A stretch of 64,000 bases of DNA, from the IMG/VR virus record IMGVR_UViG_3300024507_000442, positions 42,788 through 106,787 of that record. The stretch is one strand, 5' to 3'. Positions 25,239 through 41,607 of the stretch are shown in pieces. This DNA is from a virus. The notes below the pieces were generated by a model, which did not search any database, was not told the DNA's origin, and saw nothing but the letters and a program-made list of their open reading frames with translations. The translations under genes were made by a program, and so were the position numbers. Every line of letters begins with the position of its first letter. The stretch's first letter is position 1.

Positions 25239-26588
25239 ATGAACCCACTTGAATTGGTAGCAAAGACATTATATTCATTTAAAGAACAGCAACTAACATT
25301 CGAATTACTTGATGCCTTTGGAAAACAAGCACAAGTTTTTTCTCAATATAATGATGTAGCAAAAATATTTTTTGAACTTAAGAACTTCTCCAAGGCAATT
25401 GAGTATGGAGAAAAGTCTCTCAAATTAGCACAAACAAAAGAAGAAAAATATACGACCTCTATGAATTTGATTAATGCATATAATCAATCAAATCATCCAG
25501 AGAAATCTATTACCCAAATTGATAAGTGCAAGAAGATAAATCCGCAAGATACTGAATTGCTTCTTGAGGAAACCTTCGCGTATTCTGCACTCAATCAAAA
25601 AGAGAAGTCAGAAAAACTACTCTTCAATCTTCTCAAATATAAACTACCAGAAGAGATTGAAAGAAAAGCATATCATAATCTATCAGGACATTATTTCCGT
25701 AAGGATGATATTCATACGGGACTTCAACACTTTCTCAAAGCAGGGGAAGTAGAAGCATATAAGAATCAAAAACATCCCGATTTTGAAAAATGGGATGGAA
25801 CAGTGACGCCAGGAAGAACGATCATTGTAGATAATCAATGTGGCGCCGGTGATGAAGTCATTCATATTCGGTTTATGAAACACCTCAAAGACTTGGGAAT
25901 GAAACCAATTTGGAGTTCTACTCGCAGAGAACTTGTAGAACTCTTCAAACATAATGGATATGATGCTGTTTGTATTTGGGATAAACCAGAGTTTCCTAAA
26001 GATGCTTTCTGGGTTTATGGTCTGGCACTTCCATATTATCTCAATCTGCAACTCAAAGATATGGGAAGAGAACCTTATCTCCAAACACTCCCAGAATACG
26101 ATAAGAAATGGGAGTGGATAAAAGAAGACACTGGATATAAGGTTGGAATGTTCTGGGCTTCTAGTTCTGGGTTCGAGCAGAACACTTTCCGTTCAGTAGA
26201 ACTCAAAGACTATATGAGTGTTCTTGGAAACAAAGGATACTCACTTTATTCACTTCAAACTCACAGTGATAATAAGGATGCCAATGAGTATCCCGAAATC
26301 AAACAATCACTATCAGTTCCTAATAGAGAATATGCCGACACATTCTCAATCATCAAGAACCTTGATTTGGTAGTGACTTCTTGTAGTTTTGTGGCACATG
26401 TAGCAGCATCAATGGGTAAAGAAGTCTGTGTCTTTGTTCCTATTATGGAATATTATGTTTGGACTTCCTCTACAGGAAAGTGTATGTGGTATGGAGATAA
26501 TATTCATCTGTTCCGACAAAAGAAACCAAGAAACTGGGATGAACCACTGAAGCAACTAGGAGAGTTTTTGAATGATAGAGGAATATAA
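25239..26588 (+). CDS. TPR protein with GT-B (family 9-like) glycosyltransferase domain, 449 aa
   Basis: Residues ~25-190 are helical TPR-type repeats (Ala/Leu/Tyr spacing, e.g. FFELKNFSKAIEYGEKSLKL). From ~195 a GT9-like domain begins with DNQCGAGDEVIHIRFM, the glycine-rich first loop of heptosyltransferase-like enzymes. It ends with DLVVTSCSFVAHVAASMGK, the sugar-nucleotide binding region. TPR-plus-transferase fusions modify proteins or surface glycans; here I infer transfer of a sugar to a virion or host surface acceptor. It opens the sugar island and overlaps the next gene by 17 bases. Confidence 0.65.
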   Translation: MNPLELVAKTLYSFKEQQLTFELLDAFGKQAQVFSQYNDVAKIFFELKNFSKAIEYGEKSLKLAQTKEEKYTTSMNLINAYNQSNHPEKSITQIDKCKKINPQDTELLLEETFAYSALNQKEKSEKLLFNLLKYKLPEEIERKAYHNLSGHYFRKDDIHTGLQHFLKAGEVEAYKNQKHPDFEKWDGTVTPGRTIIVDNQCGAGDEVIHIRFMKHLKDLGMKPIWSSTRRELVELFKHNGYDAVCIWDKPEFPKDAFWVYGLALPYYLNLQLKDMGREPYLQTLPEYDKKWEWIKEDTGYKVGMFWASSSGFEQNTFRSVELKDYMSVLGNKGYSLYSLQTHSDNKDANEYPEIKQSLSVPNREYADTFSIIKNLDLVVTSCSFVAHVAASMGKEVCVFVPIMEYYVWTSSTGKCMWYGDNIHLFRQKKPRNWDEPLKQLGEFLNDRGI

Positions 26589-27030
26589 TCTTTCTTTTTT
26601 AAATCTAAATACCATCAAGAGCAAACTTCTTGAAATAGAAACTGCTTCTCACGGACTTATAACAAAAGGTGTTTCTACTTATAATCATGGAATGCCTACT
26701 TTAATGTATTCAGAACTGACTGGATTAAGAAATGTTCTTAAGCAATATGTTAGACTGTATTGTAATAAGTATGAGATTTCACCTCTAAAGTTTATCAATA
26801 GTTGGTTCAATATCTCACAACCAGGAAATAAACTCAAAGCACATAATCATGGAGAAAGTATTATAAGTGGAGCATTTTATATTTCTGGAAGCACTCCACT
26901 CATTTTTCCAGATACATCAATTAAACCTTATCCTGGATTGTTGGTTATCTTCTCAAGTGATTTAGTTCATTATACGGAAGAAGAAACAGAAGAAAGAATT
27001 ATTATTAGTTTTAATACAGATTACTTATGA
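26572..27030 (+). CDS. Putative 2OG-Fe(II) oxygenase, 152 aa
   Basis: The double-stranded beta-helix signature is visible: WFNISQPGNKLKAHNHGES around residues 80-96 (metal-binding His), GAFYISG strand, GLLVIFSSDLVHYTEEETEERIIISFN with the distal His and the Arg that would bind 2-oxoglutarate. This resembles the 2OG-FeII_Oxy_5 group common in cyanophages. The substrate is unknown; proline or asparagine hydroxylation of fibres, or sugar-linked chemistry, are both possible. The start lies inside the preceding gene, and its stop overlaps the next start (ATGA). Confidence 0.6.
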   Translation: MIEEYNLSFLNLNTIKSKLLEIETASHGLITKGVSTYNHGMPTLMYSELTGLRNVLKQYVRLYCNKYEISPLKFINSWFNISQPGNKLKAHNHGESIISGAFYISGSTPLIFPDTSIKPYPGLLVIFSSDLVHYTEEETEERIIISFNTDYL

Positions 27031-27815
27031 AATTTTTATTTTTAGTCGGTTCAGCACTCAAACATTTTAAAGAGGATGAGTTTAGTGCTTATAATGAAGA
27101 ACAGAGATTCAATCAAACATTAGAAACGATTGAATGTATTCGTAAGAAAGTTTCAGAGTCTTATGTGGTTTTATTTGAGTGTTCTTCTAAACCTATTGAT
27201 GAGAAACAAAAAGATATTCTTAAAGAAAAATCAGATTTGTTTTTAGAGTTTTATGATGAACCAGTACTAAAGCAAATTTATGAAAATCTTGAAGAAAGAC
27301 CAGAATTGATTACTTATGGCAAATCATTGTTGGAAACAAGAGGATTACTCAATACTCTTTATGAAATTAAACAGCACAATCTATTCACTGATAGTCAAAG
27401 AGTTTTTAAACTTACTGGTAGATACTTATTGAATGATCATTTTGATATTAAAGATTATGAAAGTAAGTTTCTGGAAGGAAAATATATTGTAAAAAAATAC
27501 GATTATCTTTTGGAAGAAGGTGAAAGTTTCAATGAAAGTAATCTTGAAAATGTCTATGCATACTTATATGGTGCAAAAGGTATGATGAATACTGGTCTTT
27601 GGTCTTTTGATAGAGTTTTATTTAATGAAGCGGTTGAGGCTCTTGAAGGGGCATTTACTTATATGGAAAAAATGATACAATTTACTTCTGGAACTGATGT
27701 AGAACATTCACTTTATCGATTTATAAACAAGAACAATATCATTAGTGTTCCAAATCTTGGTCTTACAATGGTAAAGGGGATGTCTGGCGAAAATGGTGGG
27801 GTGTATCATACATGA
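27027..27815 (+). CDS. Glycosyltransferase-like protein of unknown family, 262 aa
   Basis: The N-terminal strand FLFLVGSA, the helix-rich RFNQTLETIECIRKK segment and the central RVFKLTGRYLLND motif fit bacterial proteins associated with capsule or polysaccharide synthesis. Later GMMNTGLWSFDRVLF and a VEHSLYRF segment follow. No clear DxD motif is seen. The ATGA overlaps on both sides place it within the coupled sugar island. I propose a GT-A-like transferase, with the specific activity open. Confidence 0.45.
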   Translation: MKFLFLVGSALKHFKEDEFSAYNEEQRFNQTLETIECIRKKVSESYVVLFECSSKPIDEKQKDILKEKSDLFLEFYDEPVLKQIYENLEERPELITYGKSLLETRGLLNTLYEIKQHNLFTDSQRVFKLTGRYLLNDHFDIKDYESKFLEGKYIVKKYDYLLEEGESFNESNLENVYAYLYGAKGMMNTGLWSFDRVLFNEAVEALEGAFTYMEKMIQFTSGTDVEHSLYRFINKNNIISVPNLGLTMVKGMSGENGGVYHT

Positions 27816-28468
27816 AGTTAGCAGTTTTTTATCATACATTTCAAAATGAAATTTCCGCATTTATCTACCAACAACAGATTAATCGATTATTTGTATCTGG
27901 TCTAATGAATAAAATAGATCATTTTCATATTGGAGTAAATGGCAGCCAAGAAATGTTTTATATACCAACAAAAGCAAAAGTCGTTTACAATAAAAATTGG
28001 ACAGAAGAAACGGAAACGATGATTGCATTAAAAGATTTTGCGCATGAAAATCCGGATTATAAAATTTTGTATTTTCACACTAAGGGAGCAAGCAAAGGAA
28101 CTTTGATTGCAAATGCTTGGAGATTGATGATGGAGTATTTTGTAATTGATAGGTGGAAAGAGTGTGTGGAAATGTTGGATGAATATGATTGTGTTGGTTC
28201 AAATCTAAATTCTGTGGGAGAAACTTTATGGTCTGATGGTACAACCACCAAACCATTAGAAGGAACTTATAATTTTACTGGAAATTTTTGGTGGTCCAAT
28301 GCCAAACATATCCAAACACTAGACCATAAGTTTCTTTATAGTGATTATCGTATAGATAGAGAACTTTGGATTGGAAGTAATCCAAATTCAAATCCAAAAA
28401 CAATATACCAACCGGGAATTTTTGATTCATATACTTACTATTATAAGGAGGATGATTATGTTTCGTGA
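27812..28468 (+). CDS. Glycosyltransferase-like protein with YFHTKG motif, 218 aa
   Basis: The protein begins MKLAVFYHTFQNE. The central YKILYFHTKGASKG, a helix ending RWKECVEMLDEYDCVGSN, and NFTGNFWWSNAKHIQTL form a pattern seen in bacterial surface-polysaccharide proteins of the GT-A-like group. The DCVGSN and GNFWW segments probably form the donor and acceptor site. It is coupled to the upstream gene by ATGA and overlaps the Cys-rich gene downstream by 11 bases. The assignment rests on motif resemblance only. Confidence 0.5.
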   Translation: MKLAVFYHTFQNEISAFIYQQQINRLFVSGLMNKIDHFHIGVNGSQEMFYIPTKAKVVYNKNWTEETETMIALKDFAHENPDYKILYFHTKGASKGTLIANAWRLMMEYFVIDRWKECVEMLDEYDCVGSNLNSVGETLWSDGTTTKPLEGTYNFTGNFWWSNAKHIQTLDHKFLYSDYRIDRELWIGSNPNSNPKTIYQPGIFDSYTYYYKEDDYVS

Positions 28469-28823
28469 ATGTGGAGAATGTACTGCTTGTTGTACTTGGT
28501 TGATTGGTGATGCTTTTGCTTGGGAGTTTGGTGCAGGAAAGTCTTGTAAGTATCTGGAATGTAATGGTTGTGGAGTTCATAAGGCACGACCAGAATCTTG
28601 TAGAGACTATCAATGTGCTTGGACGCAGCATTTACTACCAGAAGAAATGCGACCTGATAAGTGTGATGTTCTGGTCTCTGTTGAGGGAAGTGGAGATGGT
28701 CAATATCTAAAAGTTCTTCCAATAAATAATAAAGAAATGAATTCTGAAGTTAAACAATATCTTCAAAACTGGAGTGAAAAAATGAATACTCCAGTTGTTT
28801 TTGTAGAGATTCCTCCAAAATAA
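28458..28823 (+). CDS. CxxCxxCC (YkgJ-type) metal-binding protein, 121 aa
   Basis: The start at 28458 is set by AAGGAGG at 28445-28451; longer upstream readings run inside the previous gene. MFRECGECTACC gives the CxxCxxCC motif (Cys5, 8, 11, 12). It is followed by CKYLECNGCGVHKARPESC and a DYQCAW segment, so nine cysteines lie in the first ~55 residues. YkgJ-family proteins are thought to chelate zinc or iron, possibly as an Fe-S cluster; their biochemical role is poorly known. Its place among two 2OG-Fe(II) oxygenases and an Fe-S dehydrase could indicate metal delivery, which is inference. Confidence 0.7.
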   Translation: MFRECGECTACCTWLIGDAFAWEFGAGKSCKYLECNGCGVHKARPESCRDYQCAWTQHLLPEEMRPDKCDVLVSVEGSGDGQYLKVLPINNKEMNSEVKQYLQNWSEKMNTPVVFVEIPPK

Positions 28824-28828
28824 AAGAA

Positions 28829-30508
28829 ATGCCAGTATTTTATAATTTTATCAACAATAGAGAAAATTTAGTGGCATATTCCACTTATGAAGGGACTGTT
28901 ACGTGGATTAATAATTTTCCCGCAGGTGCAACAATAACTACAGGAATAACTGCACCTGATGGAACAAATACAGCAATTAGATTTACATGCAATAATACAA
29001 CTAATGCATTATTAAGAGTTAATTTTCCTTCATTCACTCCCAACGGAACTGATACTTATACGACAAGTTTTTTTGTAAGGAGAATTAGTGGAACTGGTAG
29101 TGCATTTACTGATTTAGCAGATGGAAGTCCTTCAGTTGATTACTCATCACAATTAATTACTAATCAGTGGGTAAGAGTAACTACAAGTGGAGTTCCAACA
29201 GCAACCGCAAAAAGTTTTATTGACTTATATTCTGATAACAATACAAATCTTGTTCTTGATTTTTGGGGAGTTCAAATAGAAAGAAAATCTTCTGCTGGTG
29301 TTTATGTTCCAACCTATGGAAGTATAGTAACAGGTAATGATGGATTGACTTATAGTTTTGATAATGTTTTTGTTCCTGCTGATTTGTTTCGTGAAGGAAA
29401 CTTATGGACTTGGGGCACTAATTCTGATGGACGACTAGGAGACAATACAACAACTGGTAAACTCACTCCAATCACAACATTTGCTGGTGGAACCAATTGG
29501 AAACAACTTTCTTGTGGAGACACTCATACTGCAGCAATTAAAACGGATGGAACTTTATGGCTTTGGGGTAGTAATAATACTGGACAACTAGGAGACAGTA
29601 CAACAACCAATAAATTAACTCCAGTCACTACATTCGCAGGAGGAAACAACTGGAAACAAGTTAATGCTGGAGGTTATCGTTCTACTGTAGCAATTAAAAC
29701 TGATGGAACTTTATGGTCTTGGGGTCGTGGTTTTGTCGGACAAATGGGAAACGCTGCAACAGATAATAAATCAACTCCAGTCACTACATTCACAGGAGGA
29801 ACCAACTGGAAACAAGTTACTGCCGGAAGAGGCCATATAGCGGCAATCAAAACTGATGGAACTTTATGGGTTTGGGGTGATGGATCTTTTGGAAGACTTG
29901 GAATTAATGCTACTGGTAATAGATCAACTCCAGTCACAACATTTGCTGGAGGGACTAATTGGAGTCAAATAAGTAATGGAGGTAGTTTTTCTACAGCAAT
30001 TAAAACTGATGGAACTCTTTGGACTTGGGGTTATAATACTTCTGCACAATTAGGAAACAATTCAAATACTAATGTATCCACTCCGATCACTACATTCGCA
30101 GGAGGAACCAACTGGAAACAAGTTTCTGGTGGTGGTTATCATACAGCAGCAATCAAAACTGATGGAACTTTATGGACTTGGGGTCGTAATTATGAGGGAC
30201 AACTAGGAATCACTAGATCTGGTGCTGGAAACGATGCATCTACTCCAGTCACTACATTCGCAGGAGGAACCAACTGGAAACAAGTTGGTTGTAGTGGTTC
30301 TAATATATGTCGTATTACAATAGCAATCAAGACCGATGGAACTTTATGGACTTGGGGTGATAATTCTAATGGACAACAGGGAATCAATGGTTCTGGTACT
30401 AGTAAATCAACTCCAATCACTACATTCGCAGGAGGAACCAACTGGAAACAAGTTTCTAGTGGAGATAGGTTTTCGGTAGCACTCACATACATCGATCCTG
30501 TGATATAA
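28829..30508 (+). CDS. RCC1-repeat adhesin 3 with beta-sandwich N-terminus, 559 aa
   Basis: Residues ~1-165 are a beta-sandwich module (ENLVAYSTYEGTVTWINN ... GVQIERKSSAGVYVPTYG) related to those in the LamG genes. Seven RCC1 repeats follow from residue ~188, with the same TPVTTFAGGTNWKQV core as the other two RCC1 genes; several blades are almost identical in DNA (CGCAGGAGGAACCAACTGGA). It is embedded between sugar-island genes, which ties the island to adhesin production. The combination of modules points to a virion surface adhesin. Confidence 0.75.
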   Translation: MPVFYNFINNRENLVAYSTYEGTVTWINNFPAGATITTGITAPDGTNTAIRFTCNNTTNALLRVNFPSFTPNGTDTYTTSFFVRRISGTGSAFTDLADGSPSVDYSSQLITNQWVRVTTSGVPTATAKSFIDLYSDNNTNLVLDFWGVQIERKSSAGVYVPTYGSIVTGNDGLTYSFDNVFVPADLFREGNLWTWGTNSDGRLGDNTTTGKLTPITTFAGGTNWKQLSCGDTHTAAIKTDGTLWLWGSNNTGQLGDSTTTNKLTPVTTFAGGNNWKQVNAGGYRSTVAIKTDGTLWSWGRGFVGQMGNAATDNKSTPVTTFTGGTNWKQVTAGRGHIAAIKTDGTLWVWGDGSFGRLGINATGNRSTPVTTFAGGTNWSQISNGGSFSTAIKTDGTLWTWGYNTSAQLGNNSNTNVSTPITTFAGGTNWKQVSGGGYHTAAIKTDGTLWTWGRNYEGQLGITRSGAGNDASTPVTTFAGGTNWKQVGCSGSNICRITIAIKTDGTLWTWGDNSNGQQGINGSGTSKSTPITTFAGGTNWKQVSSGDRFSVALTYIDPVI

Positions 30509-30532: not shown

Positions 30533-31315
30533 ATGAAGACATTATATTTTCTTGGAGGACTTCCAAGAAGTGGTTCTACATTACTTGGGTCACTTCTCAA
30601 TCAACATCCAGACATTTATGTATCACCAACATCTCCATTAGGTGATGTAGTAACTGATATTGAGAAATCATTTAATACTTTAGATATCCAATTTACCTTT
30701 GACCGCAAGGCAATTTCGTATAATGTCTATAAGGCAGTTCTTGCAAACTTTTATAATCACATTCCAAAATCAACAATTCTAGATAAGCATCGGTTTTGGG
30801 GAAAGAATCTTGATACCGTTCAAATGTTTCTTTCCAACAAACCAAAAATTGTAGCAACTTATCGTTCTATTCCAGAAGTTCTTACATCTTATATTTCACT
30901 CATAGAAAGGTCAAAGCACTATGATAATTTCATTGATAATCATTTAAGGAATGATAATCTACCAATTACAAATAATAATCGTGCAGAATATATTTGGAGA
31001 TATTATGTTGCTCCTTCTTATGAGAGTATGGTTTATGGACTCAACAAATATCCAGATTGGGTTCATTTAGTTGAATATAATGCTCTAGTCAATAATCCAG
31101 AAGAAGAACTGAGTAAAATCTATGAGTTTTTAGAAGTTCCATCTCATACAAATACTTTCAATAACATTGAAAATGCTTGTGGAGAACAAAAGGACGAAGA
31201 ATGGGGACTTAGAGGGCTTCATGATATTCGTCCAAATCTTGCCAAAATTTCACAAAATCCTATTGAAGTAATAGGAGAAGAGAATATAAAACTTTATTCC
31301 AAGTTTGATATATGA
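30533..31315 (+). CDS. Sulfotransferase-family protein, 260 aa
   Basis: The N-terminal FLGGLPRSGSTLLGSLLNQH (residues 7-26) is the 5'-phosphosulfate-binding loop of PAPS-dependent sulfotransferases, with Arg12-Ser13-Gly14-Ser15-Thr16. IVATYRSIPEVLTSYISLI around residue 105 fits the 3'-phosphate-binding region, where family members have an Arg and a Ser. The later helical part ends with a segment rich in charged residues. It would transfer sulfate from PAPS to a sugar or tyrosine hydroxyl; sulfated surface glycans are common in marine bacteria. It is coupled by ATGA to the next gene. Confidence 0.75.
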   Translation: MKTLYFLGGLPRSGSTLLGSLLNQHPDIYVSPTSPLGDVVTDIEKSFNTLDIQFTFDRKAISYNVYKAVLANFYNHIPKSTILDKHRFWGKNLDTVQMFLSNKPKIVATYRSIPEVLTSYISLIERSKHYDNFIDNHLRNDNLPITNNNRAEYIWRYYVAPSYESMVYGLNKYPDWVHLVEYNALVNNPEEELSKIYEFLEVPSHTNTFNNIENACGEQKDEEWGLRGLHDIRPNLAKISQNPIEVIGEENIKLYSKFDI

Positions 31316-32115
31316 AAACTCATTTGTTAGTTGTCGTCCAGACTCATTCAAAAGGAAACCGAGATAAAGATTCTGGAAGATATTGTGAAGCACCAAAGAT
31401 CGAAGTTTCTTCAAGGTGTATCTTTTCTTTGATTGATAGTCTCAATTACGCACAAGAACATTATCCAGATTATGAAATAGAACTTCAAATCTTTGATGAC
31501 CACTCGGACAAAGAATTTTTAGATATTTTAGAAAAACTTATCAGCATTGCAAAGTTCAAAGTTAATCTAACCCATCTTGAGACTTATGGTATTATGCCAT
31601 CTATTTTGAGGTGCTACGAACATGGAAGAGATTATGGAAAAGATTGGGTCTATTATGTTCAAGATGATTTTCTTCATCAACAAGACTCTGTTGAACTGAT
31701 GATACATGCAATTAATCAGTTTAGTTGTAATCTAGGTTCTCCTGCAAGTATCTTTCCATTCAATAAGCCAGCAGAGTATCACGAAGCAGAAAACACTGCA
31801 GTTCCTTGTCATCTTGTAGTATCAAAAGATAGATATTGGAGAACTAATTTTCATGTAGCAGTGACTTTAATGACTCATGTTGATATTATTAGAAAGCACT
31901 GGGACTTGTTCCACAAAATGGGAACAAGTGAGGTAAGTGAAACGATGGAAATGGATAGTATTTGTAGGGTTTATTATGAAAGAGGACATTTCTGCTTTAC
32001 TCCAATTCCTTCTTTAGCACTACATATGCAAGGAGAATATGATAGAGACTTCTTTATTGATTGGAAGTCTTGGTGGAATGAATATGATTTGGAGAAATTA
32101 AAAACCTATGTTTAG
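31312..32115 (+). CDS. GT-A-like glycosyltransferase, 267 aa
   Basis: The N-terminal strand HLLVVVQTHS, then ELQIFDDHSDKEFLDIL (a family-2-like DDxSxD motif) and WVYYVQDDFLHQQ (the DxD-type metal site, around residues 113-120) support a GT-A fold. A late MEMDSICRVYYERGHFCF segment may form the acceptor lid. It follows the sulfotransferase with ATGA overlap and precedes a 2OG oxygenase with 8 overlapping bases. Donor and acceptor are unknown. Confidence 0.55.
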   Translation: MKTHLLVVVQTHSKGNRDKDSGRYCEAPKIEVSSRCIFSLIDSLNYAQEHYPDYEIELQIFDDHSDKEFLDILEKLISIAKFKVNLTHLETYGIMPSILRCYEHGRDYGKDWVYYVQDDFLHQQDSVELMIHAINQFSCNLGSPASIFPFNKPAEYHEAENTAVPCHLVVSKDRYWRTNFHVAVTLMTHVDIIRKHWDLFHKMGTSEVSETMEMDSICRVYYERGHFCFTPIPSLALHMQGEYDRDFFIDWKSWWNEYDLEKLKTYV

Positions 32116-32707
32116 TCATATATCATTACCAAATCCCGGTGTCACATCTGGTGTTCTTCCAGAAGAACTTTATAATCAAGTAATGAATGAAGTAAATGAA
32201 ATCTCTTCTGATTTTCATTCTCATTCAAATTACAATAATGGTCTTGCAGGAAATATAGAAAATCAATATGAGTTGCAAAAGTCTATGTTAGTTTTGCAAC
32301 CATATCTCAATGAAATGTGTAAGTCATATACAGACTATTGGAATTTCTACAAAAAACCAAGTGACTTTAAACTCACTCATCTGTGGGTCAATTTTCAAAA
32401 GAAGAATGAGTTTAATCCAATTCACCATCACAGCAGCACTTTTAGTTTTGTTTGCTGGTTAAAAATTCCATACAAAGTAGAAGAAGAGTTGAATGCGGCT
32501 CATGTAAAAGATACAAAAGCAAAAGCAGCATCAACTTTCCAATTCATCTATCCAAATATTTTAGGACAACTTACTTTAGAAACCTTATATGTCAATGAGG
32601 ATTGGTGTGGTAGAATAGTATTGTTCCCAGCACATTTATCTCATTGCGTCTATCCATTTTCTACAAGTGATGATTATAGAATTTCAATATCAGGCAATTT
32701 AGAATGA
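32108..32707 (+). CDS. Putative 2OG-Fe(II) oxygenase, 199 aa
   Basis: The pattern HLWVNFQKKNEFNPIHHHSS (around residues 90-110) supplies the metal-binding His residues. GRIVLFPAHLSHCVYPFSTS followed by DDYRISISGN supplies the distal His and the 2-oxoglutarate-binding Arg. This is the arrangement seen in the TIGR02466-like / 2OG-FeII_Oxy_5 proteins frequent in cyanophages. It is clearly a different subfamily from the oxygenase at 26572. Substrate unknown; a hydroxylation of fibre residues or of a glycan is plausible. It is joined to the next gene by ATGA. Confidence 0.65.
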   Translation: MFSHISLPNPGVTSGVLPEELYNQVMNEVNEISSDFHSHSNYNNGLAGNIENQYELQKSMLVLQPYLNEMCKSYTDYWNFYKKPSDFKLTHLWVNFQKKNEFNPIHHHSSTFSFVCWLKIPYKVEEELNAAHVKDTKAKAASTFQFIYPNILGQLTLETLYVNEDWCGRIVLFPAHLSHCVYPFSTSDDYRISISGNLE

Positions 32708-33384
32708 AGCGAACATTAGAAAGTTTTTATCCAACAGAGAATTCTTTTATAGAAAATACTTATATTATTACTCTACCAAATAATGAAACTTCAAAGACCT
32801 TAACTCAAAGATGTATAGAGAGTTGTATTGCAGTAGAGCAACCTTATACTCTTTGGGAAGGTTTTGATGGTTCTTCTGGAGAAATTGTAATACCGAAACA
32901 TCTTCAAGACAAAGATTACTTGAAATGGTTGAAGGTCAATCATAAATTTATGACACCATCTCAAATTGGGTGTTGCTTATCTCACTTTAGTTTGTGGTTT
33001 CATTGTATCACAATAGATAGACCTATCGTTATATTAGAGCACGATGCTATAATGGTAGAGAAATTTTTTGGTCCCTATCCTTTTTATAATGCAATCACAT
33101 ATCTTGGTTGTAAGGAACAGAAGTATAATGGGATGTCCGTTCAACCAACTCCAATTCATATGCAATCACCTGATACTTTCACTCGTAAAATAGGTCGGGC
33201 ACATGCATATGCAATTGACCCTGCTGTTGCGAAGTTAATGGTTTCTCGTCTTCTGGTTGATGGTATTACTACAATGAACGATGAGTTTATGCACGCTAAT
33301 CTATTTACGATTATTCAATATGGATTTTATGCATATGATGAACCAGGAGAAACAACAATACAAACACCCAATTATCCTTTTTAG
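32704..33384 (+). CDS. Glycosyltransferase family 25-like protein, 226 aa
   Basis: NTYIITLPNNETSKTLTQRC at the N-terminus, MTPSQIGCCLSHFSLWFHC in the centre and RPIVILEHDAIM around residues 111-122 are the three hallmarks of GT25 (LPS-type) transferases, with EHDA as the metal motif. Family members add galactose or glucose to LPS cores or to hydroxylated collagen-type residues. That second activity is notable here, because the window encodes collagen-like fibre tracts and 2OG oxygenases. It is coupled upstream by ATGA. Confidence 0.7.
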   Translation: MKRTLESFYPTENSFIENTYIITLPNNETSKTLTQRCIESCIAVEQPYTLWEGFDGSSGEIVIPKHLQDKDYLKWLKVNHKFMTPSQIGCCLSHFSLWFHCITIDRPIVILEHDAIMVEKFFGPYPFYNAITYLGCKEQKYNGMSVQPTPIHMQSPDTFTRKIGRAHAYAIDPAVAKLMVSRLLVDGITTMNDEFMHANLFTIIQYGFYAYDEPGETTIQTPNYPF

Positions 33385-34085: not shown

Positions 34086-34648
34086 AAGTAGTTCAAATTG
34101 GTTCTAATAAAGGTGATGATGATTTATCTAAACATCTCAAAGAAAATTATAATGAATTAGAATTTGGACTTTTTGTTGAAGCAAATCCACTACATATTGG
34201 AAATTTAAAAAATTGCTATTCTCAATATCAAAATTCTGTTATTGAGAATGTTGCAATTAAAGTTCCTTCTTACAATGAAGACACATTAAAACTTTATTAT
34301 CATCAAAATGATGGTCCAATGTACCATGTCGCTTCTTGTGTGAAGTCTCATATTGAAATTTATTATCCAAGTGACGGAATTAGATATTTTGAAGTTCCTT
34401 GTATAACTATAAATCAATTATTTGAAAAGTATGATATCAAGGAATTGGATTGGTTACTATTGGATATTGAAGGAATTGACTCTGAAATTTTATTAACAAC
34501 AGATTGGAATAATTATGATATTCAAAGAATTGAATATGAAGAATTACATCTTGGTGATAAAAAACATGAAATAGAAAATATTTTCAAAACTCTTGGTTAT
34601 AAAAAAACAACTGCTTTACATCATTACGATAATGCTTGGGAAAAATAA
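34082..34648 (+). CDS. FkbM-family methyltransferase, 188 aa
   Basis: I chose the ATG at 34082, which overlaps the previous stop as ATGA, rather than the upstream TTG. MKVVQIGSNKGDDDLSKHL carries the SAM-binding glycine motif. FGLFVEANPLHIGNLKNCY is motif II, and VPCITINQLFEKY, LDWLLLDIEGIDSEIL (around residues 125-140) and the ending IEYEELHL fit FkbM methyltransferases. These enzymes usually O-methylate sugars. It is slightly shorter than typical family members. I infer a role in decorating the glycan built by this island. Confidence 0.75.
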   Translation: MKVVQIGSNKGDDDLSKHLKENYNELEFGLFVEANPLHIGNLKNCYSQYQNSVIENVAIKVPSYNEDTLKLYYHQNDGPMYHVASCVKSHIEIYYPSDGIRYFEVPCITINQLFEKYDIKELDWLLLDIEGIDSEILLTTDWNNYDIQRIEYEELHLGDKKHEIENIFKTLGYKKTTALHHYDNAWEK

Positions 34649-34650: not shown

Positions 34651-34956
34651 ATGAAAAATCATCCTGTAGTTGAAACTGAATATTTTAACATTATTAAGGG
34701 AGTTGTAGATGGTCTTCATAAATCTGGAATGACCGAAGCAGGTTCTGGATATTGTTTGAGTATGAGTGATATTGTACTTAAACTTTTACATAAAGAAGGA
34801 ATTAAGGCAAGATTGGTAGAGTGTAACTTAATGGTTACACTTAAAAATCCTCCTGGATTGTTTTTAATGGGTTATCCAGGATTCAATCAAAATAATTACA
34901 CTGCTGATAATTCGCGGTACATACGACTTCTATCAAACCTTCATCAATCCTCATAG
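34651..34956 (+). pseudogene. Truncated or frameshifted conserved phage protein, 101 aa
   Basis: The ATG at 34651 opens a protein that starts MKNHPVVETEYFNIIKGVVD and continues with GYCLSMSDIVLKLLHKEGIK. I recall longer cyanophage proteins with this N-terminus. After ~85 residues the sequence degenerates (YIRLLSNLHQSS) and stops at 34954-34956. In the +1 frame, bases 34868-35002 are open and protein-like, with RGTYDFYQTFINPHSGWGPN and a TGA at 35000. That C-terminal piece has no start of its own. A frameshift or a deletion joining two genes near 34900 explains this best. Confidence 0.55.
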
Positions 34957-35010
34957 TGGATGGGGTCCTAATAAATCAGAAATTATTAAAAACAACAAGT
35001 GAGGATTAAA

Positions 35011-35982
35011 ATGAAAGTTACACTATACGCAATCGCAAAGAACGAAGAAAAAAATATTGAAAAGTTTCTCAAGAATGCAGAGAAATTTGATGATGTCGTT
35101 GTAGTCGATACTGGAAGTACAGACAATACAATTCAACTACTTAAAGATGCTGGTATTAAAGTCTACGAGCATCCACAGACTCGTGCAGAGTTTGATTTTT
35201 CAGTAGCAAGAAATCAGGCATTATCTTATGTGGAAACTGATTGGGCTTTTTCTATAGATTTTAATGAAGAAATAGATGATTTTTTCCCAGAGGGTCTTGC
35301 AGTAATCTCTGAAGAGTTTACAACATTTAAACATGAAAGGTATGATAAAATTGATGATGAAGAACCAACTCTAGGTCAAACTGCACATGTTCGTTTTCAT
35401 AGAACTAAAAACTATACTTGGGTAAATGCAGTTCACGAAACTCCAATGTTTCTTCCAACTGAAGAACATCTTGGTGAGGTTGCAGTAGATACTACAATTA
35501 AGATTACTAAAAACCTTCAACCAAGTATTGATAAAGAACTTTTCTATCTTTCAATCTGCGAGAGAGAATATCAAAATAATCCAGAAAATAATTATTATCT
35601 TTGGTTTATTTTTAAGCACTACTATCAGGTCAAAAATCTCAATAAAGTACTTGAGGTAGGTCAACAATATCTCAATATCTCCAAAGCATATTTTGATCCA
35701 CAAAGGATTGATGTGTTCATCATGTGTAGTATTTGTTTAGTTAATCTTAAAGAGGTAGAAAAGTCTGCAAACTATGCTTTCCATGCACTCAGTGAAGCAA
35801 TGAATTTTGGTGGAGGACTTCTAGGAAAAGCATTTAATCACTTGTTAGAAATTGGAAAACTCACACAAAATCCAAATATTATTATCTTTGCAACAGGATT
35901 TAATCCAGAAACTTTAACTTATCCAGAAAGAACTCAAGCGATAAAGAGTCTTTATGATAGTAATCACATGAATTTTGTATGA
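35011..35982 (+). CDS. Family 2 glycosyltransferase, 323 aa
   Basis: The ATG at 35011 is preferred over the GTG at 34999 because GAGGA at 35001-35005 is a well-placed ribosome-binding site. YAIAKNEEKNIEKFLKN, VVVVDTGSTDNTIQLLK and ARNQALSYVETDW are the classic GT2 motifs. The usual acidic metal motif reads SIDFNEEID. The C-terminal ~130 residues are helical and TPR-like (LSICEREYQNNPENNYYLW). It is likely to extend an oligosaccharide in the cytoplasm. It is coupled by ATGA to the epimerase. Confidence 0.75.
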   Translation: MKVTLYAIAKNEEKNIEKFLKNAEKFDDVVVVDTGSTDNTIQLLKDAGIKVYEHPQTRAEFDFSVARNQALSYVETDWAFSIDFNEEIDDFFPEGLAVISEEFTTFKHERYDKIDDEEPTLGQTAHVRFHRTKNYTWVNAVHETPMFLPTEEHLGEVAVDTTIKITKNLQPSIDKELFYLSICEREYQNNPENNYYLWFIFKHYYQVKNLNKVLEVGQQYLNISKAYFDPQRIDVFIMCSICLVNLKEVEKSANYAFHALSEAMNFGGGLLGKAFNHLLEIGKLTQNPNIIIFATGFNPETLTYPERTQAIKSLYDSNHMNFV

Positions 35983-36803
35983 GTAAAATAGCAGTTTTTG
36001 GGGGGACTGGATTTATTGGAGGAACATTTTGTAGATTATACTCACAAAAAGTAAATATAATTCCAAAGCAAAGTATAGAATTTGATACCAAAGAAGTTTT
36101 ATATTTTATAAGCACCACCACAAATCAAAATGTTTTTAATGATCTTCATATAGATATAAACACTAATCTAAATTTTCTGATGGATGTCTTATCCAATTGC
36201 AAAGATAAAGACATCACATTTAATTTTATTAGTTCATGTTTTGTTTATGGTAATGATATTATAGATGCAAAAGAAACTGATAATTGCAATCCAACTGGAT
36301 TTTATTCTGTAACAAAAAGATGTGCAGAGCAATTATTAATTTCCTTTTGCAAGACCTTTAATATTAAATATAGAATTTTAAGAATTGGAAATGTTTATGG
36401 ATTGGATAAAACAATTTCTTTGAAGAAAAATGTCCTGGCACATATCATAAAACAATTGAAGAAAAATGAAGATGTTCATCTTTATGATAACGGAGATTAT
36501 TTAAAAGACTATATGTTTGTTGAAGATGTATGTAAAGCAATTGAGATAATTTTGGAATTTGGACACCACAACGAAATTTATAATATTGCTTCGGGAACAT
36601 CAAATAACTTTAAATATATTATAGAAACAGCAAAAAGTATTACAAATAGTCATAGTAAATTAATTAGTGTTCCAATACCAACTAATCAGCAATATATTCA
36701 AATTAAAAATATGACTTTGAATATCGACAAATTAAAGTCTCTCAAATTCGAACCACAAATTAATTTTAAATACGGTTTGCATATGCTTTGCAATATGTTA
36801 TAG
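35979..36803 (+). CDS. NAD-dependent epimerase/dehydratase (extended SDR), 274 aa
   Basis: FGGTGFIGG at residues 7-15 is the Rossmann loop. The SSCFVYGND strand gives the active-site Ser region, and Tyr109-Ser-Val-Thr-Lys113 is the YxxxK catalytic motif. ILRIGNVYG and YLKDYMFVEDVCKAIEIIL complete the extended-SDR pattern. The protein is slightly short, with a reduced N-terminal half. It would act on a nucleotide sugar, as epimerase, dehydratase or reductase; which cannot be told from sequence. It fits next to the RfbH-type enzyme in a deoxysugar pathway. Confidence 0.75.
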   Translation: MSKIAVFGGTGFIGGTFCRLYSQKVNIIPKQSIEFDTKEVLYFISTTTNQNVFNDLHIDINTNLNFLMDVLSNCKDKDITFNFISSCFVYGNDIIDAKETDNCNPTGFYSVTKRCAEQLLISFCKTFNIKYRILRIGNVYGLDKTISLKKNVLAHIIKQLKKNEDVHLYDNGDYLKDYMFVEDVCKAIEIILEFGHHNEIYNIASGTSNNFKYIIETAKSITNSHSKLISVPIPTNQQYIQIKNMTLNIDKLKSLKFEPQINFKYGLHMLCNML

Positions 36804-36824: not shown

Positions 36825-37592
36825 ATGTCAATATCAAAAATTCTTGTAGTCAGTAATCATTCTAATCATGACTTAGAGTGGCTAAAAATGACTTATGACT
36901 ATGGATTTTCTCCAGAAAATACTCTTATTTACGATCGAACGCCTAACGATTTTCCGAATAAATCGAAGATATGTCACTTAGGAAAAGTTATACCTTCACC
37001 TAATGTTGGTTCAAATCCTTATGATATCGGTAGATTTATTGTAGACCACTATGACAATCTTCCGGACATGATGATTCACATCAAAGGAAATCTATTAAAA
37101 AAAGAACCCCCAAATGGAAAAACTTCATATACAACAGAGAAGAGATTTATATATGCTCTAAAAGCGAATTGGTTTGTTCCTATTGATGGTGGAAATCATA
37201 TTCAAAATAATTTTCCTTATATTTTAAATAACAATTTGTTTTCTCTACCCATAGAGTGGGAATTAAAAAACTACACAATGGGGTGTGTTTTTTCGGAAGA
37301 AGATTTTAGAAAAGCAAAAACTTATCCTAGAATCTCTAATTTTCTGGAATTCATGAAAGACTTGTTTATTATAGAAGATTACCAAATTCCCAAATTTATA
37401 AGTTTTGCTCCCGCAGCAAATTATGCCGTACCAAAAAATTGCATCCTAAAGTACAGCAAAAACTTTTATAAAAAAATGATGTATTATACTGATTATAATG
37501 ACAATCCCGTAGAAGCACATTGGTTTGAAAGAATTTTACAATTAGCTTGGCAAGGTTGTCTTGAAGAAAATTTCTCCTATATTGTGAATTAA
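36825..37592 (+). CDS. DUF3431-like protein, possible glycosyltransferase, 255 aa
   Basis: The order of motifs recalls DUF3431: an N-terminal KILVVSNHSNHDLEWL, a tyrosine/aspartate-containing TLIYDRTPND, NVGSNPYDIGRFIVDHYDNL around residue 67, LPDMMIHIKGN, then APAANYAVPKNCILKYSKNF and the closing AHWFERILQLAW. Proteins of this type are GT-like and of unknown activity. It lies directly behind a promoter-like sequence, 21 bases after the epimerase. Two bases separate it from the aminotransferase-fold gene. Confidence 0.5.
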   Translation: MSISKILVVSNHSNHDLEWLKMTYDYGFSPENTLIYDRTPNDFPNKSKICHLGKVIPSPNVGSNPYDIGRFIVDHYDNLPDMMIHIKGNLLKKEPPNGKTSYTTEKRFIYALKANWFVPIDGGNHIQNNFPYILNNNLFSLPIEWELKNYTMGCVFSEEDFRKAKTYPRISNFLEFMKDLFIIEDYQIPKFISFAPAANYAVPKNCILKYSKNFYKKMMYYTDYNDNPVEAHWFERILQLAWQGCLEENFSYIVN

Positions 37593-37594
37593 AA

Positions 37595-38890
37595 ATGAAA
37601 GAACAAGTAAAGCAATTTATTGATGACCTTTTTGAAAGTGATGAATCTTTCTTTAAGTATCTCTATAATAATGATTATGTGAAGGGAGAATCAAATATTT
37701 TTTACTCTGGTCCCTACTGGAATCACGAAGAAATTCAAGTTGCAATGAAAACCTTCCTGACTGGAAAGTGGTTATCTTCCGGTGAGGCAGTGAATAAGTT
37801 TGAGAAAGAATTCTCACAGAAGTTTAACTTTCAACATTCAGTAATGGTAAATTCTGGGAGCTCAGCAAATCTTGTAATGATTGCTGCTCTCAAGAAATAT
37901 TTTGATTGGCAAGATGGTGATGAAATTATTGTATCTGTTTGTGGATTTCCAACTACTCTTAATCCCATCCTTCAAAACAATCTAAAACCAGTCTTTGTTG
38001 ATATTGATTATACTGATTTGAATTGGAATTTGGATGAACTTAAATCCAAAATAACCCCAAGAACAAGAGCAGTATTTTCTTCACCTGTTCTCGGAAATGC
38101 ATATAACTTTGATTATCTACTTGAGATTTGTGATCGTTATAAACTTGAGTTAATTTCTGATAACTGCGATAGCCTTGGAAGTAAATGGAAAGGTAAGTAT
38201 CTTACAGACTACTCTGTTGCATCTTCTTGTTCTTTCTATCCAGCACATCATATTACAACGATTGAAGGTGGTATGGTGTCTTCTAATATTAAAGAAGTGA
38301 TTGATATTGCTCGTAGTTTTGCTTGGTGGGGAAGAGATTGCTATTGCGTTGGTTCACAAAATCTTCTTTCTTGTGGAACTTGTGGTAAGAGATTTGATAA
38401 ATGGTTAGTTGGATATGATAAGGTTGTAGACCATAAGTACATCTTCGGACAAATTGGTTATAATCTCAAACCAATTGATATGCTTGGTTCAATCGGTTCA
38501 GTGCAACTTAAAAAGTTTGATGAAATTCATTATCTTCGCAGATATAATAAGGCACGAATTCATCAAATCTTCGAATCTATTCCTGGAGTAAGAGTGATTG
38601 ATGAGTTACCGCAGTCTGAAACAAGTTGGTTTGGTGTTCCGATTGTATGCAATACTAACAAGGAGAAACTTGTTAAGCACTTGGAAGATAACAAGATACA
38701 AACAAGAAATTATTTTGCAGGCAATCTTTTGATTCATCCAGCTTACCGACATCTTGGTTCTGGATTTGATTATCCAAATGCAATGAAAGTTCTTGAGAAT
38801 GTATTTTTTATTGGATGCTCCCCAACTATAAACGACCAGATGATTGAATTTATAGAAGAGACTGTTGATTCTTATAAGAAAATAGCATGA
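37595..38890 (+). CDS. rfbH: RfbH/E1-type CDP-4-keto-6-deoxyglucose 3-dehydrase, 431 aa
   Basis: This is a DegT/DnrJ/EryC1-fold protein with the two changes that define the E1 (RfbH) dehydrases. The Schiff-base lysine is replaced by His in SFYPAHHITTIEGG (His218 aligns with Lys). Cysteines occur as CX57CXC (Cys191, 249, 251) followed by Cys260 and Cys263, matching the [2Fe-2S] ligand pattern of E1 closely. E1 uses PMP and a reductase partner to remove the C3 hydroxyl, giving 3,6-dideoxysugars. No reductase gene is visible in the window, so the host would have to supply it. It is coupled by ATGA to DUF6165. Confidence 0.8.
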   Translation: MKEQVKQFIDDLFESDESFFKYLYNNDYVKGESNIFYSGPYWNHEEIQVAMKTFLTGKWLSSGEAVNKFEKEFSQKFNFQHSVMVNSGSSANLVMIAALKKYFDWQDGDEIIVSVCGFPTTLNPILQNNLKPVFVDIDYTDLNWNLDELKSKITPRTRAVFSSPVLGNAYNFDYLLEICDRYKLELISDNCDSLGSKWKGKYLTDYSVASSCSFYPAHHITTIEGGMVSSNIKEVIDIARSFAWWGRDCYCVGSQNLLSCGTCGKRFDKWLVGYDKVVDHKYIFGQIGYNLKPIDMLGSIGSVQLKKFDEIHYLRRYNKARIHQIFESIPGVRVIDELPQSETSWFGVPIVCNTNKEKLVKHLEDNKIQTRNYFAGNLLIHPAYRHLGSGFDYPNAMKVLENVFFIGCSPTINDQMIEFIEETVDSYKKIA

Positions 38891-39249
38891 AGATTACAAT
38901 TCCAGTATCAGTAGGTGAACTATTAGATAAAATTTCGATTCTTGAAATTAAGTCTATGTTTACTAACAATGAATATGTTCTCAAAGAACTTGAGGACTTA
39001 AATCAAATCAAAAATACTCTTATCCAATTCACTCTTGAGTACATGAATGAACTGAGGGAAGTTAATCAAAAACTTTGGAAGATTGAAGATGAATTGAGAG
39101 AGTTAGAAAAAAATAAAGACTTTGGGAAAAAGTTCATTGAACTTGCCCGAAGTGTCTATATTACTAATGATAAAAGAGCAGACATAAAGAAAAGAATTGA
39201 TGAGGAATTCAATTCCGAATATAGGGAGGTAAAAATGTACAATAAATAG
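38887..39249 (+). CDS. DUF6165 family protein, 120 aa
   Basis: The family pattern is clear: ITIPVSVGELLDKISILEIK at the N-terminus, a long amphipathic coiled coil (LNQIKNTLIQFTLEYMNELR ... KLWKIEDELRELEKNK) and the conserved ending ARSVYITNDKRADIKKRID. The function of the family is not known to me; members often lie next to TPR and glycosyltransferase genes. It overlaps the dehydrase gene by four bases and probably works in the same pathway. Confidence 0.7.
   Translation: MKITIPVSVGELLDKISILEIKSMFTNNEYVLKELEDLNQIKNTLIQFTLEYMNELREVNQKLWKIEDELRELEKNKDFGKKFIELARSVYITNDKRADIKKRIDEEFNSEYREVKMYNK
39241..39248 (+). promoter_or_regulatory. Late promoter-type core AATAAATA
   Basis: Lies at the end of the DUF6165 gene, 40 bases before the ATG at 39288. 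That is the spacing seen at the other late-type sites here. Confidence 0.45.
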
Positions 39250-39287
39250 AACAGTTTTAAAATCTCAATTGATTTTCTGGTGATCTT

Positions 39288-40265
39288 ATGTCTGTAGGCT
39301 TTGTGAAGCAGGTTTTAGATAATGGTGGAAAAATAAAACCATTAATAATACCATCAAATGAAACAAATGGTACTGGGTTATGTAACCCATCCATACTTGT
39401 TAAAGACAATAAAATTTTAGCGAATGTGAGGCACATTCAATATACTCTATACCATTCGGAGTTAAAAAATTACGAACATCCGTATGGTCCTTTAGTGTAT
39501 CTAAATCCAGATAACGACAATACACTAACAACAACTAATTTTATCTGTGAACTTGATGATGATTTGAATATTTCATACTTTTCAAAAGTAGATACATCTG
39601 CTTTTGATAAACCACCGTTGTGGGAATTTGTTGGTCTCGAAGATGCAAGATTGATAGAATGGGACAGCAAATTATTTTTGTGTGGTGTTAGAAGAGATTT
39701 AGATACTATCGGAACCGGAAGAATGGAACTTTCGGAAATTGAAATTAATGAAAATTCTGTAAACGAGGTATCGAGATTTAGAATCCCAGGTCCTCCACCC
39801 GACAAAGAGTATTGTAATAAAAACTGGATGCCAATCTTAGACATGCCCTATCACTTTGTCAAGTGGACAAATGGTACAGAGATAGTCAAAGTTGATGTCC
39901 AGAATAACAGTACAGAAAGTGTAATCATTAAAAATTGGGTTCAACATAATAGAGATCTGAGAGGAGGTTCTCAAGTCCTGTCATATAATGGTGGATACTT
40001 AACCCTAAATCACGAAACCGATTTGTATAGAAGTGAAGCGGGAAGGAAAGATGCAACATACAGGCATCGTTTCACTTTTTGGGATAAGGACTGGAATATA
40101 CAAAAAATTTCGCAGCAGTTTTCTTTCCTTAATGCAAAAATTGAATTTGCTTGTGGTATGGCAAAGTATAAAGAAGATTACTTGATTACTTTTGGTTTTC
40201 AAGATAATGCCGCATATGTTTTAAGAGTACCTGGACAATTTCTGGAGGATTTTATTAATGGATGA
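39288..40265 (+). CDS. GH130-like five-bladed propeller protein, 325 aa
   Basis: The blade signatures NPSILVKDNKILANVRHIQY, FVGLEDARLIEWDSKLFLCG (around residues 113-132), NWMPILDMPYHFVKW and RGGSQVLSYNGGYLTLNHET resemble the GH130/GH43-type DUF377 propellers (phosphorylases on mannosides). No catalytic assignment is safe, although the Glu-Asp-Ala-Arg motif is well conserved in that group. Similar proteins occur in bacterial polysaccharide loci. It could cleave, transfer or bind a mannose-containing glycan. It overlaps the next gene by 8 bases. Confidence 0.55.
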   Translation: MSVGFVKQVLDNGGKIKPLIIPSNETNGTGLCNPSILVKDNKILANVRHIQYTLYHSELKNYEHPYGPLVYLNPDNDNTLTTTNFICELDDDLNISYFSKVDTSAFDKPPLWEFVGLEDARLIEWDSKLFLCGVRRDLDTIGTGRMELSEIEINENSVNEVSRFRIPGPPPDKEYCNKNWMPILDMPYHFVKWTNGTEIVKVDVQNNSTESVIIKNWVQHNRDLRGGSQVLSYNGGYLTLNHETDLYRSEAGRKDATYRHRFTFWDKDWNIQKISQQFSFLNAKIEFACGMAKYKEDYLITFGFQDNAAYVLRVPGQFLEDFING

Positions 40266-41607
40266 TACACTTTATAATTACATTCAAGATACAGAAAATG
40301 CTGAAAGCAATTTTAATCTTGCAGTACAATATGAAATATTGGGCCAAACTGCATCCGCAATTTCTTATTATTTGAGGGCAGCAGATAGAGCGGATGATTT
40401 GAATTTAGTTTATGAGTCTTTGATTAGAATGTCATATTGTTTTAACAAACAAGGAAACCGTTGGTATACTGTCAAAGGTCTCCTAAACCATGCAATTACT
40501 GTTTTACCAAGAAGACCAGAAGCATATTATATTCTTTCAAGATATGAAGAGTGGAATAAGAGTTATACTGAAGCATATACACTTTCAAATACAGCTTTAA
40601 CTTTTTGCGATTTTAATCAAGAACCACTAAGAACCGATGTTGAGTATCCCGGAAAATATGGGTTAATTTTTGAAAAAGCAGTTTGTTCATATTGGTGGGG
40701 AAAATCTGAAGAGTGTAGAAGATTGTTTAAAATATTGGTTGATGATTATTATGATCAAATGAATGATTCTCATAAAAAATCAGTTAAAAATAATTTTAAT
40801 GTTTTAGGTATGGATTTCCCATATCTTCTTGACGAAGATAAAACAAAATTAAAAGGATTTCCTTCGATATATTATTTGAGTTTAGAAGAATCCATTGATA
40901 GAAGAACTCATTTAGAAAATCAATTTAAAGAATATGATATTGAAAAAATTAACTCAGTAGTATCCAAAAGATTTATAGAGTGTAATGATATTCTTCATGG
41001 TCAATATGTTCACACTTTGACCAATGCAAGTAAAGGATGTTGCACTTCTCATATGAGATGTATTAAGAGGTGGTTAAATGAAACAGATGAACCTTATGGA
41101 TTTTTTTGTGAGGATGATCTTTCATTAGAAACTATTAAGAATTGGAACTTTACTTGGGGAGAGTTTGTTGATAATTTACCCTCAGATTGGGAATGCGTTC
41201 AACTTATGTGGGTCAGAGATCAAATGACCGATATTAAAGTTAGGGAAAGACAATTTGATGACTGGTCTGCGACTGCATATATCCTTAAAAGAGAGCGTGC
41301 TCAAAAAATAATTGATACTTATTACTATGATGACGAATTCCATTTTGATATTCCAGAATCTAATCTGCAACCAATTGTAGAAAATCTTGTTTTCTCATTG
41401 GGAAAAGTTTATACATTCCCACTATTTGTTGAAGAAATTAAAAAGTTTGATACTTGTATAATCAATAGTGAAGAATTTAATGGTTTAAAGGATGATTGGG
41501 TAATTGTAGATGGTCAAGGTCCAGCTCATATTAGGTCTTATCATCAAATTGCAGAATGGTGGAAGAAAACTGGATTTAAATTAAAAGCAGACCAAATTCC
41601 TAAATAA
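40258..41607 (+). CDS. TPR protein with family 25 glycosyltransferase domain, 449 aa
   Basis: Residues ~1-190 are TPR repeats (SNFNLAVQYEILGQTASAIS, AYYILSRYEEWNKSYTEAY). A GT25 domain follows from ~201: IYYLSLEESIDRRTHLENQF, SKGCCTSHMRCIKRWL, YGFFCEDDLSLE, with the ED-D motif at the metal site, and VQLMWVRDQ. GT25 enzymes act in LPS core synthesis and in collagen glycosylation. The domain order repeats that of the first island gene (TPR then transferase) with a different transferase fold. It is the last gene of the island. Confidence 0.75.
   Translation: MDDTLYNYIQDTENAESNFNLAVQYEILGQTASAISYYLRAADRADDLNLVYESLIRMSYCFNKQGNRWYTVKGLLNHAITVLPRRPEAYYILSRYEEWNKSYTEAYTLSNTALTFCDFNQEPLRTDVEYPGKYGLIFEKAVCSYWWGKSEECRRLFKILVDDYYDQMNDSHKKSVKNNFNVLGMDFPYLLDEDKTKLKGFPSIYYLSLEESIDRRTHLENQFKEYDIEKINSVVSKRFIECNDILHGQYVHTLTNASKGCCTSHMRCIKRWLNETDEPYGFFCEDDLSLETIKNWNFTWGEFVDNLPSDWECVQLMWVRDQMTDIKVRERQFDDWSATAYILKRERAQKIIDTYYYDDEFHFDIPESNLQPIVENLVFSLGKVYTFPLFVEEIKKFDTCIINSEEFNGLKDDWVIVDGQGPAHIRSYHQIAEWWKKTGFKLKADQIPK

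Follow-up and report, generated by a model that had tools for sequence, protein, structure and literature searches.

What does a T4-like cyanophage modify with a long run of sugar enzymes placed behind its fibre genes? The question is raised by positions 25239-41607 of a 64,000-nucleotide stretch of viral DNA (hereafter the window), which corresponds to bases 42788-106787 of the 106,787-bp viral contig IMGVR_UViG_3300024507_000442. Cyanophages are rich in 2-oxoglutarate (2OG) oxygenase and sugar genes of unproven purpose, usually read as changing host metabolism or lipopolysaccharide (LPS). S-SCSM1, for example, carries many 2OG genes, and the viral functions of cyanophage 2OG oxygenases have not been investigated (PMC9602691). 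An earlier note on this DNA had proposed either modification of the phage's own collagen-like fibres and RCC1 adhesins or alteration of host LPS. The locus is probably a late-expressed operon dedicated to the decoration of RCC1 adhesins, a reading favoured over the host surface because the pairing of adhesin and enzymes is found again in distant phages as well as free bacteria.

Judged by T4-type gp17, gp18 and gp20 genes with cyanophage relatives (78–87% for gp17), the virus is a T4-like cyanophage (Kyanoviridae), and among named entries the closest DNA match to the island comes from S-SRM01, a member of that family and a freshwater Synechococcus phage. The contig is a fragment (the S-SRM01 genome has 241 kb), and a gene missing from it proves little. 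The proposed coupling of the genes was borne out, since 25239-41607 is filled by 20 genes on the + strand with junctions of −17 to +42 bp. The proposed start was too narrow, as the unit also takes in RCC1a, DUF4376 and RCC1b (22127-25204); by gene order, its natural beginning is the RCC1a gene at 22127. Downstream, DUF5661 and DUF6321 genes (41622-43493) separate the island from the terminase gene gp17. Pfam matches support the enzymes and adhesin named earlier, namely the two 2OG oxygenases (both 2OG-FeII_Oxy_5), the sulfotransferase (Sulfotransfer_3), the FkbM methyltransferase, the glycosyltransferases (GTs; two GT25 and several GT2) and RCC1. The features are as follows.

22041 (+): ATAAATA late promoter motif, ahead of RCC1a
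22127-23311 (+): RCC1a, RCC1-repeat propeller adhesin, 394 aa; PF00415 4e-58; syntenic in S-SRM01
23308 (+): ATAAATA late promoter motif, ahead of DUF4376
23329-23997 (+): DUF4376 protein between RCC1 genes, a possible adhesin assembly factor; PF14301 1.3e-4, just under the cut-off; position conserved
23999-25204 (+): RCC1b, RCC1-repeat propeller adhesin, 401 aa; PF00415 1.3e-59
25239-26588 (+): TPR-GT, predicted TPR + GT9-type GT-B glycosyltransferase, the core enzyme; TPR match and GT-domain model
26572-27030 (+): 2OG-Fe(II) oxygenase a (2OGa); PF13759 1.1e-12
27027-27815 (+): GTx, presumed glycosyltransferase by inferred fold; no family; position conserved
27812-28468 (+): GTy, presumed glycosyltransferase; no significant family; invariant GNFWW motif
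28458-28823 (+): CysR, CxxCxxCC metal-binding protein; invariant Cys pattern; phrog_9155 2e-19
28722-28728 (+): ATAAATA late promoter motif, 100 bp upstream of RCC1c
28829-30508 (+): RCC1c, N-terminal LamG-like domain + RCC1 propeller, 559 aa; PF00415 3.7e-62
30533-31315 (+): sulfotransferase (ST), Sulfotransfer_3; PF13469 4e-15; 3'-phosphoadenosine 5'-phosphosulfate (PAPS) loop GLPRSGS
31312-32115 (+): GT2-type glycosyltransferase a (GT2a); PF00535 9e-6
32108-32707 (+): 2OG-Fe(II) oxygenase b (2OGb); PF13759 2e-11
32704-33384 (+): GT25 glycosyltransferase a (GT25a); PF01755 1.2e-13
33387-34085 (+): GT2-like glycosyltransferase b (GT2b); PF00535 0.018, weak; kept in nearly all relatives
34082-34648 (+): FkbM-type methyltransferase; PF05050 8.5e-12
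34651-34956 (+): remnant of a decayed gene whose relatives encode 228-235 aa; tblastn matches residues 1-91 and 200-223 of an intact relative in two frames
34999-35982 (+): GT2 glycosyltransferase c (GT2c); PF00535 3e-10
35979-36803 (+): NAD-dependent sugar epimerase/dehydratase/reductase; PF01370 1e-29; GGTGFIG and YxxxK present
36825-37592 (+): DUF3431 protein (GT-like); PF11913 1.6e-7
37595-38890 (+): RfbH/E1-type NDP-4-keto-6-deoxyhexose 3-dehydrase; NF011936 369 bits; PDB 3bcx 4e-69
38887-39249 (+): DUF6165/DUF4254 protein, conserved end of the core; PF19662 1.7e-10
39242-39248 (+): ATAAATA late promoter motif, ahead of gene 39288
39288-40265 (+): unclassified protein; relatives of 54-61% in other RCC1 cassettes
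40258-41607 (+): TPR + GT25 glycosyltransferase (TPR-GT25); PF01755 2.8e-8; phrog_2835 5.8e-47

Such a run goes far beyond what chance would give, since one and the same order of genes, fibre-RCC1a-DUF4376-RCC1b-TPR-GT-2OGa-(227-aa protein)-GTx-GTy-CysR-RCC1c-ST-GT2b-GT2c-DUF6165, recurs in S-SRM01 and dozens of environmental relatives, and core synteny spans dozens of phage contigs from both freshwater and marine habitats. Breakage of core enzymes, which the earlier note would have counted against its proposal, was also looked for. The core genes are open without internal stops and under purifying selection, with ratios of nonsynonymous to synonymous substitution rates (dN/dS) of about 0.05–0.16 (TPR-GT 0.06–0.15; CysR 0.2–0.3), but the gene at 34651-34956 has decayed through an internal deletion relative to its relatives, and GT2c no longer has the methyltransferase-like domain that many of its relatives (510–530 aa) carry at the C-terminus.

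The enzymes and RCC1 are linked across phages. In a tblastn search of 50,697 phage records, TPR-GT was found in four and RCC1b in six, and the four lie within the six. The identity of TPR-GT drops to 28% in BUCT-ZZ01, where the gene directly follows an RCC1 gene, and to 23% in the marine virus AG-345-E08, whose parallel cassette holds three RCC1 genes, TPR-GT, ST, GT25, CysR, a GTy counterpart (40% identity) and a number of oxygenases, four of which have Pfam 2OG matches. S-SRM01 and two relatives of 247 and 258 kb have their listed RCC1 repeats at this locus only, and the single TPR-GT of each genome lies at the same locus. Among the viral loci retrieved, RCC1 stands beside TPR-GT in 27 of the 28 found by TPR-GT and in all 13 found from the marine query, and occurs in 73/73 loci found by CysR, whereas RCC1, TPR-GT, ST and CysR were each found in 0/74 control loci retrieved by RfbH outside the island; the locus sets overlap and hold near-identical contigs, and these counts are not independent. 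One contig filed under a Bacteroidetes metagenome-assembled genome (L227) carries T4-like neck-type genes and was counted as phage. L215 looks like an exception to the linkage but has a TPR-GT elsewhere on its contig. In the cassette of a marine single-cell virus (L193:7852-18714), three RCC1 genes are surrounded by several 2OG oxygenases, of which four match Pfam 2OG families, two of these PF13640.

The same pairing was detected on bacterial contigs. RCC1 lies near TPR-GT in 3/3 Patescibacteria loci and 4/5 Bdellovibrionota loci, directly adjoining it in five of the seven. A tatC gene is located near RCC1/TPR-GT in two Patescibacteria loci (L226:875-1618 and L237:1025-1738), and two Bdellovibrionota RCC1 proteins (L239, L260) begin with RR-type leaders, which together suggest that the bacterial RCC1 proteins may be exported folded after decoration in the cytoplasm. 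Beside RCC1 in another Patescibacteria locus (L264:6810-10856, − strand), a 1349-aa protein joins ST, TPR-GT9, methyltransferase and TPR-GT41 domains. GT41 is a family that glycosylates proteins, and its domain was met only in this fusion protein. About 50 Azospirillum/Niveispirillum loci (L229–L295) hold TPR-GT relatives, several per genome, and no RCC1.

What kind of enzyme TPR-GT is was addressed by structure prediction. The full-length AlphaFold model, with a predicted local distance difference test score (pLDDT) of 72, places TPR helices at residues 3–168, followed by a GT-B fold; its best PDB neighbours are SPINDLY and OGT, at a template modelling (TM) score of only about 0.3 that is driven by the TPR part. 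The GT domain alone, modelled from alignment A7 (48 sequences, thinned at ~95% identity), reached a pLDDT of 89.9, and its fold search put 3tov, WaaC and WaaF on top (TMq 0.58–0.62, E 3.5e-7 to 8e-6), with the adhesin heptosyltransferase TibC at TM 0.51–0.57. The window TPR-GT has no Pfam GT9 match, and on the model we interpret it as a divergent member of GT9, a GT9-type transferase docked through its TPR. Like OGT and SPINDLY (GT41), it would have a TPR superhelix followed by GT-B, but the GT domain taken by itself matches GT9 and not GT41. Membership of the OGT/SPY family was withdrawn, since TPR-GT lacks a PF13844 match and its GT domain alone folds as GT9. In support of RCC1 decoration, the modelled TPR plus GT-B architecture resembles that of protein O-GTs, and the GT domain resembles GT9 enzymes including TibC. 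The autotransporter heptosyltransferase system TibC/TibA likewise has a dedicated GT9-like enzyme adjoining an adhesin (PMC4358343). The window differs from it in that no iron-finger insertion was detected (no conserved Cys quartet of the TibC type in alignments A1 and A7), a TPR array replaces the N-terminal beta-barrel, an RCC1 propeller takes the place of the autotransporter, and there are many extra enzymes.

Which surface would receive the sugars? The blades of cassette-linked RCC1 proteins have [ST][ST]P[VI] in common, along with an invariant Trp, and contain 21–26% Ser/Thr. The RCC1 proteins of Clostridioides phages, whose genomes are without TPR-GT, have 12–15% Ser/Thr and hardly any [ST]P, and RCC1 genes located away from TPR-GT (L215, L217) range over 14–26%, showing that Ser/Thr richness is not discriminating. 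The composition suggests the Ser/Thr of the blades as possible acceptors, a weak sign given the overlap with L215 and L217. The N-terminus of RCC1c is weakly similar to the neighbouring fibre protein at 19286-20815 (E=0.001).

Collagen-like fibres are also encoded upstream of the island, at 1-444 together with its upstream part (G000:C1:37964-43231; 290 triplets) and at 12310-18516 (61 triplets), and the presence of GT25 and 2OG genes near them had suggested a collagen-like pathway of 2OG hydroxylation and GT25 glycosylation. We regard this pathway as very improbable. The fibre repeats are of the form Gly-X-Gln, and among ~351 triplets position Y is mainly Gln, with five Pro and one Lys; the substrate for collagen lysyl/prolyl hydroxylation and GT25 glycosylation is therefore missing. 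In addition, the PF13759 family is not one of lysyl/prolyl collagen hydroxylases, and it is RCC1 genes rather than collagen genes that the enzymes accompany. The fibre half of the self-modification proposal is thus contradicted, while its RCC1 half is favoured by the linkage in phages and bacteria.

The remaining enzymes hint at the chemistry involved. In the window oxygenases, H93, H133 and R142 (numbering of 2OGa) are invariant. The closest solved structures to ST are the protein-tyrosine sulfotransferases TPST1/2 (E=6e-8), and its GLPRSGST loop is invariant; PF13469 also includes sulfotransferases other than TPST. The Cys-rich metal protein recognised earlier is indeed of the CxxCxxCC type, but PF03692 is matched by only 4/14 of the CysR relatives. 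GTx has no family in Pfam or PHROGs, and a PDB search gave only spurious matches (PCNA). As regards the deoxysugar pair claimed previously, the epimerase is supported, and the aminotransferase-like member can be sharpened to an RfbH/E1 3-dehydrase of the 3,6-dideoxyhexose type. This DegT-family protein scores 369 bits against NF011936, below the equivalog cut-off of 423, and its best solved relatives are CDP-4-keto-6-deoxyglucose 3-dehydrases; with 3bcx, the segment SFYPAHHIT (His for the pyridoxal phosphate (PLP) Lys) and the [2Fe-2S] motif CYC...CGTCGKRF align. The RfbH/E1 match, the His and the Fe-S Cys residues point to 3,6-dideoxyhexose synthesis. By comparison with Pfam, NCBIfam, PHROGs and PDB, the supposed GH130-like propeller (39288-40265) has no match and the assignment was abandoned.

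On its + strand the window has 21 copies of ATAAATA, the core of T4-type late promoters, and on its − strand none. The total count is not above chance, but the placement is, with a gene start following 10–140 bp downstream of 15 of the 21 motifs (P = 1e-10). The motifs inside the run (28722 and 39242) fit late, virion-stage expression. About 14 occurrences would be expected on the − strand, and their absence possibly reflects avoidance of antisense late promoters.

On this basis, decoration of RCC1 might proceed as follows. Three RCC1 beta-propeller adhesins, located at the tail fibres or close to them, would be made together with soluble enzymes and modified in the cytoplasm, ahead of virion assembly. 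RCC1 would be docked by the TPR array, and the GT9 domain would put the first sugar on the Ser/Thr-rich blade loops; GT2, GT25, GTx and GTy enzymes may lengthen the glycan, FkbM may cap it with methyl and the sulfotransferase with sulfate, and hydroxylation of residues or sugars may fall to the 2OG oxygenases. The epimerase-DUF3431-RfbH trio, presumably recruited from ordinary cyanophage glycan clusters, would supply a 3,6-dideoxyhexose. The purpose may be altered specificity, stability or shielding of the adhesin at adsorption. The acceptor role of RCC1, the residues used, the order of the steps and incorporation into the virion are what we infer.

A host-directed role must be weighed against this. 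Envelope (LPS/O-antigen) remodelling during infection, blocking superinfection or aiding virion release, is the usual reading of cyanophage glycan clusters (PMC9602691), RfbH sugars are classic O-antigen sugars, and the GT domain of TPR-GT is GT9/WaaC-like. The cyanophage LPS/cell-wall clusters (S-SCSM1 and the RfbH loci L040–L113) share the epimerase-DUF3431-RfbH trio and TPR-GT25 with the window, but RCC1, TPR-GT, ST and CysR are absent from all 74 such loci, and host LPS alteration, possible especially for the accessory genes, leaves unexplained why the core tracks RCC1. The RCC1/TPR-GT pair is also present in bacteria, on contigs of Patescibacteria among others, where superinfection exclusion is meaningless, and the late-promoter motifs likewise speak against envelope remodelling. 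Phage seroconversion by O-antigen modification would be expected to involve a membrane flippase, membrane GT or acyltransferase; no Pfam family of flippases, polymerases, membrane GTs or O-acetyltransferases/acyltransferases was found among the proteins of the run, and hydropathy revealed no membrane segment or leader in any island protein. Envelope remodelling as the role of the whole locus is thus considered unlikely.

With the trio common to cyanophage glycan clusters and inserted at two places in RCC1 cassettes, the island consists, by gene content, of a conserved core linked to RCC1 and of borrowed sugar genes. Such a composition would also fit a mixed operon in which the core decorates RCC1 while the trio and the GT25 genes serve the host envelope and share only promoters; these accessory genes are at home separately in other phages and variable among relatives. 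This seems improbable too, given the tight coupling of the run and the occurrence of RfbH and epimerase in RCC1 cassettes at two positions (in the window, and in L029 between GTy and CysR without DUF3431), which suggests use with the core.

Several points weigh against the dedicated decoration of RCC1, besides the non-independence of the locus counts. The accessory genes are shared, the trio being common in cyanophage glycan clusters at 55–82% identity, as is TPR-GT25 (40258-41607), and GT9, the predicted family of TPR-GT, also builds LPS cores. In the window 2OG proteins, the third metal ligand (usually Asp/Glu) is not conserved. An ST-ST-CysR-methyltransferase-TPR-GT module follows directly on fibre genes with no RCC1 in range (L033:7143-11332), where another adhesin may be the target; RCC1-DUF4376-RCC1-CysR-RCC1-ST occurs without TPR-GT (L154:2850-8344), a minimal variant which suggests that CysR and ST are able to act without the GT; and Clostridioides phages carry RCC1 adhesins without TPR-GT. 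Modification of RCC1 and its presence in the virion are here predictions from the genes.

How far is such a system new? In S-SRM01 (NC_070963, 222–235 kb), the arrangement RCC1-DUF4376-RCC1-TPR-2OG-GTs-RCC1-sulfotransferase occupies the same place after the fibres, with a TPR-GT 91% identical to that of the window; unlike the window, it is without RfbH, FkbM, GT2a, 2OGb and GT25a. That locus has been annotated gene by gene only, and the S-SRM01 genome paper does not mention RCC1, sulfotransferase or LPS. Virion glycosylation in actinobacteriophages is not known to come with an RCC1 adhesin or with sulfotransferase, 2OG or dideoxysugar modules. Phage-encoded GTs have been proposed to glycosylate virion proteins there (PMC11256854). 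No account of RCC1-linked phage glycan cassettes was found in open-access papers. The earlier suggestion of an undescribed system therefore holds in part: that literature appears to contain no description of RCC1 as acceptor, of this set of enzymes or of the spread over phages and bacteria, but dedicated glycosylation of adhesins or virions is a known kind of system. A broader proposal, possible rather than probable, is that the RCC1 propeller serves as dedicated acceptor for a complex glycan, initiated by TPR-GT9, hydroxylated, methylated, sulfated and here extended with a 3,6-dideoxyhexose, in an undescribed system common to T4-like phages of several lineages, Patescibacteria and Bdellovibrionota, whose adhesins would be exported folded via Tat. 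With this locus, a defined set of 2OG and sugar genes can be tied to a named candidate acceptor, and this in a phage that is in culture (S-SRM01). If the proposal is true, this adhesin chemistry would be common to phages and predatory or epibiotic bacteria and may bear on host recognition.

Two further open reading frames (ORFs) were observed away from the island. A 314-aa ORF lies on the − strand at the window edge (63051-63995), in a region otherwise on the + strand, and an ORF outside the window (G000:C1:4345-5358, − strand) has a GIY-YIG-like start and possibly encodes a homing endonuclease.

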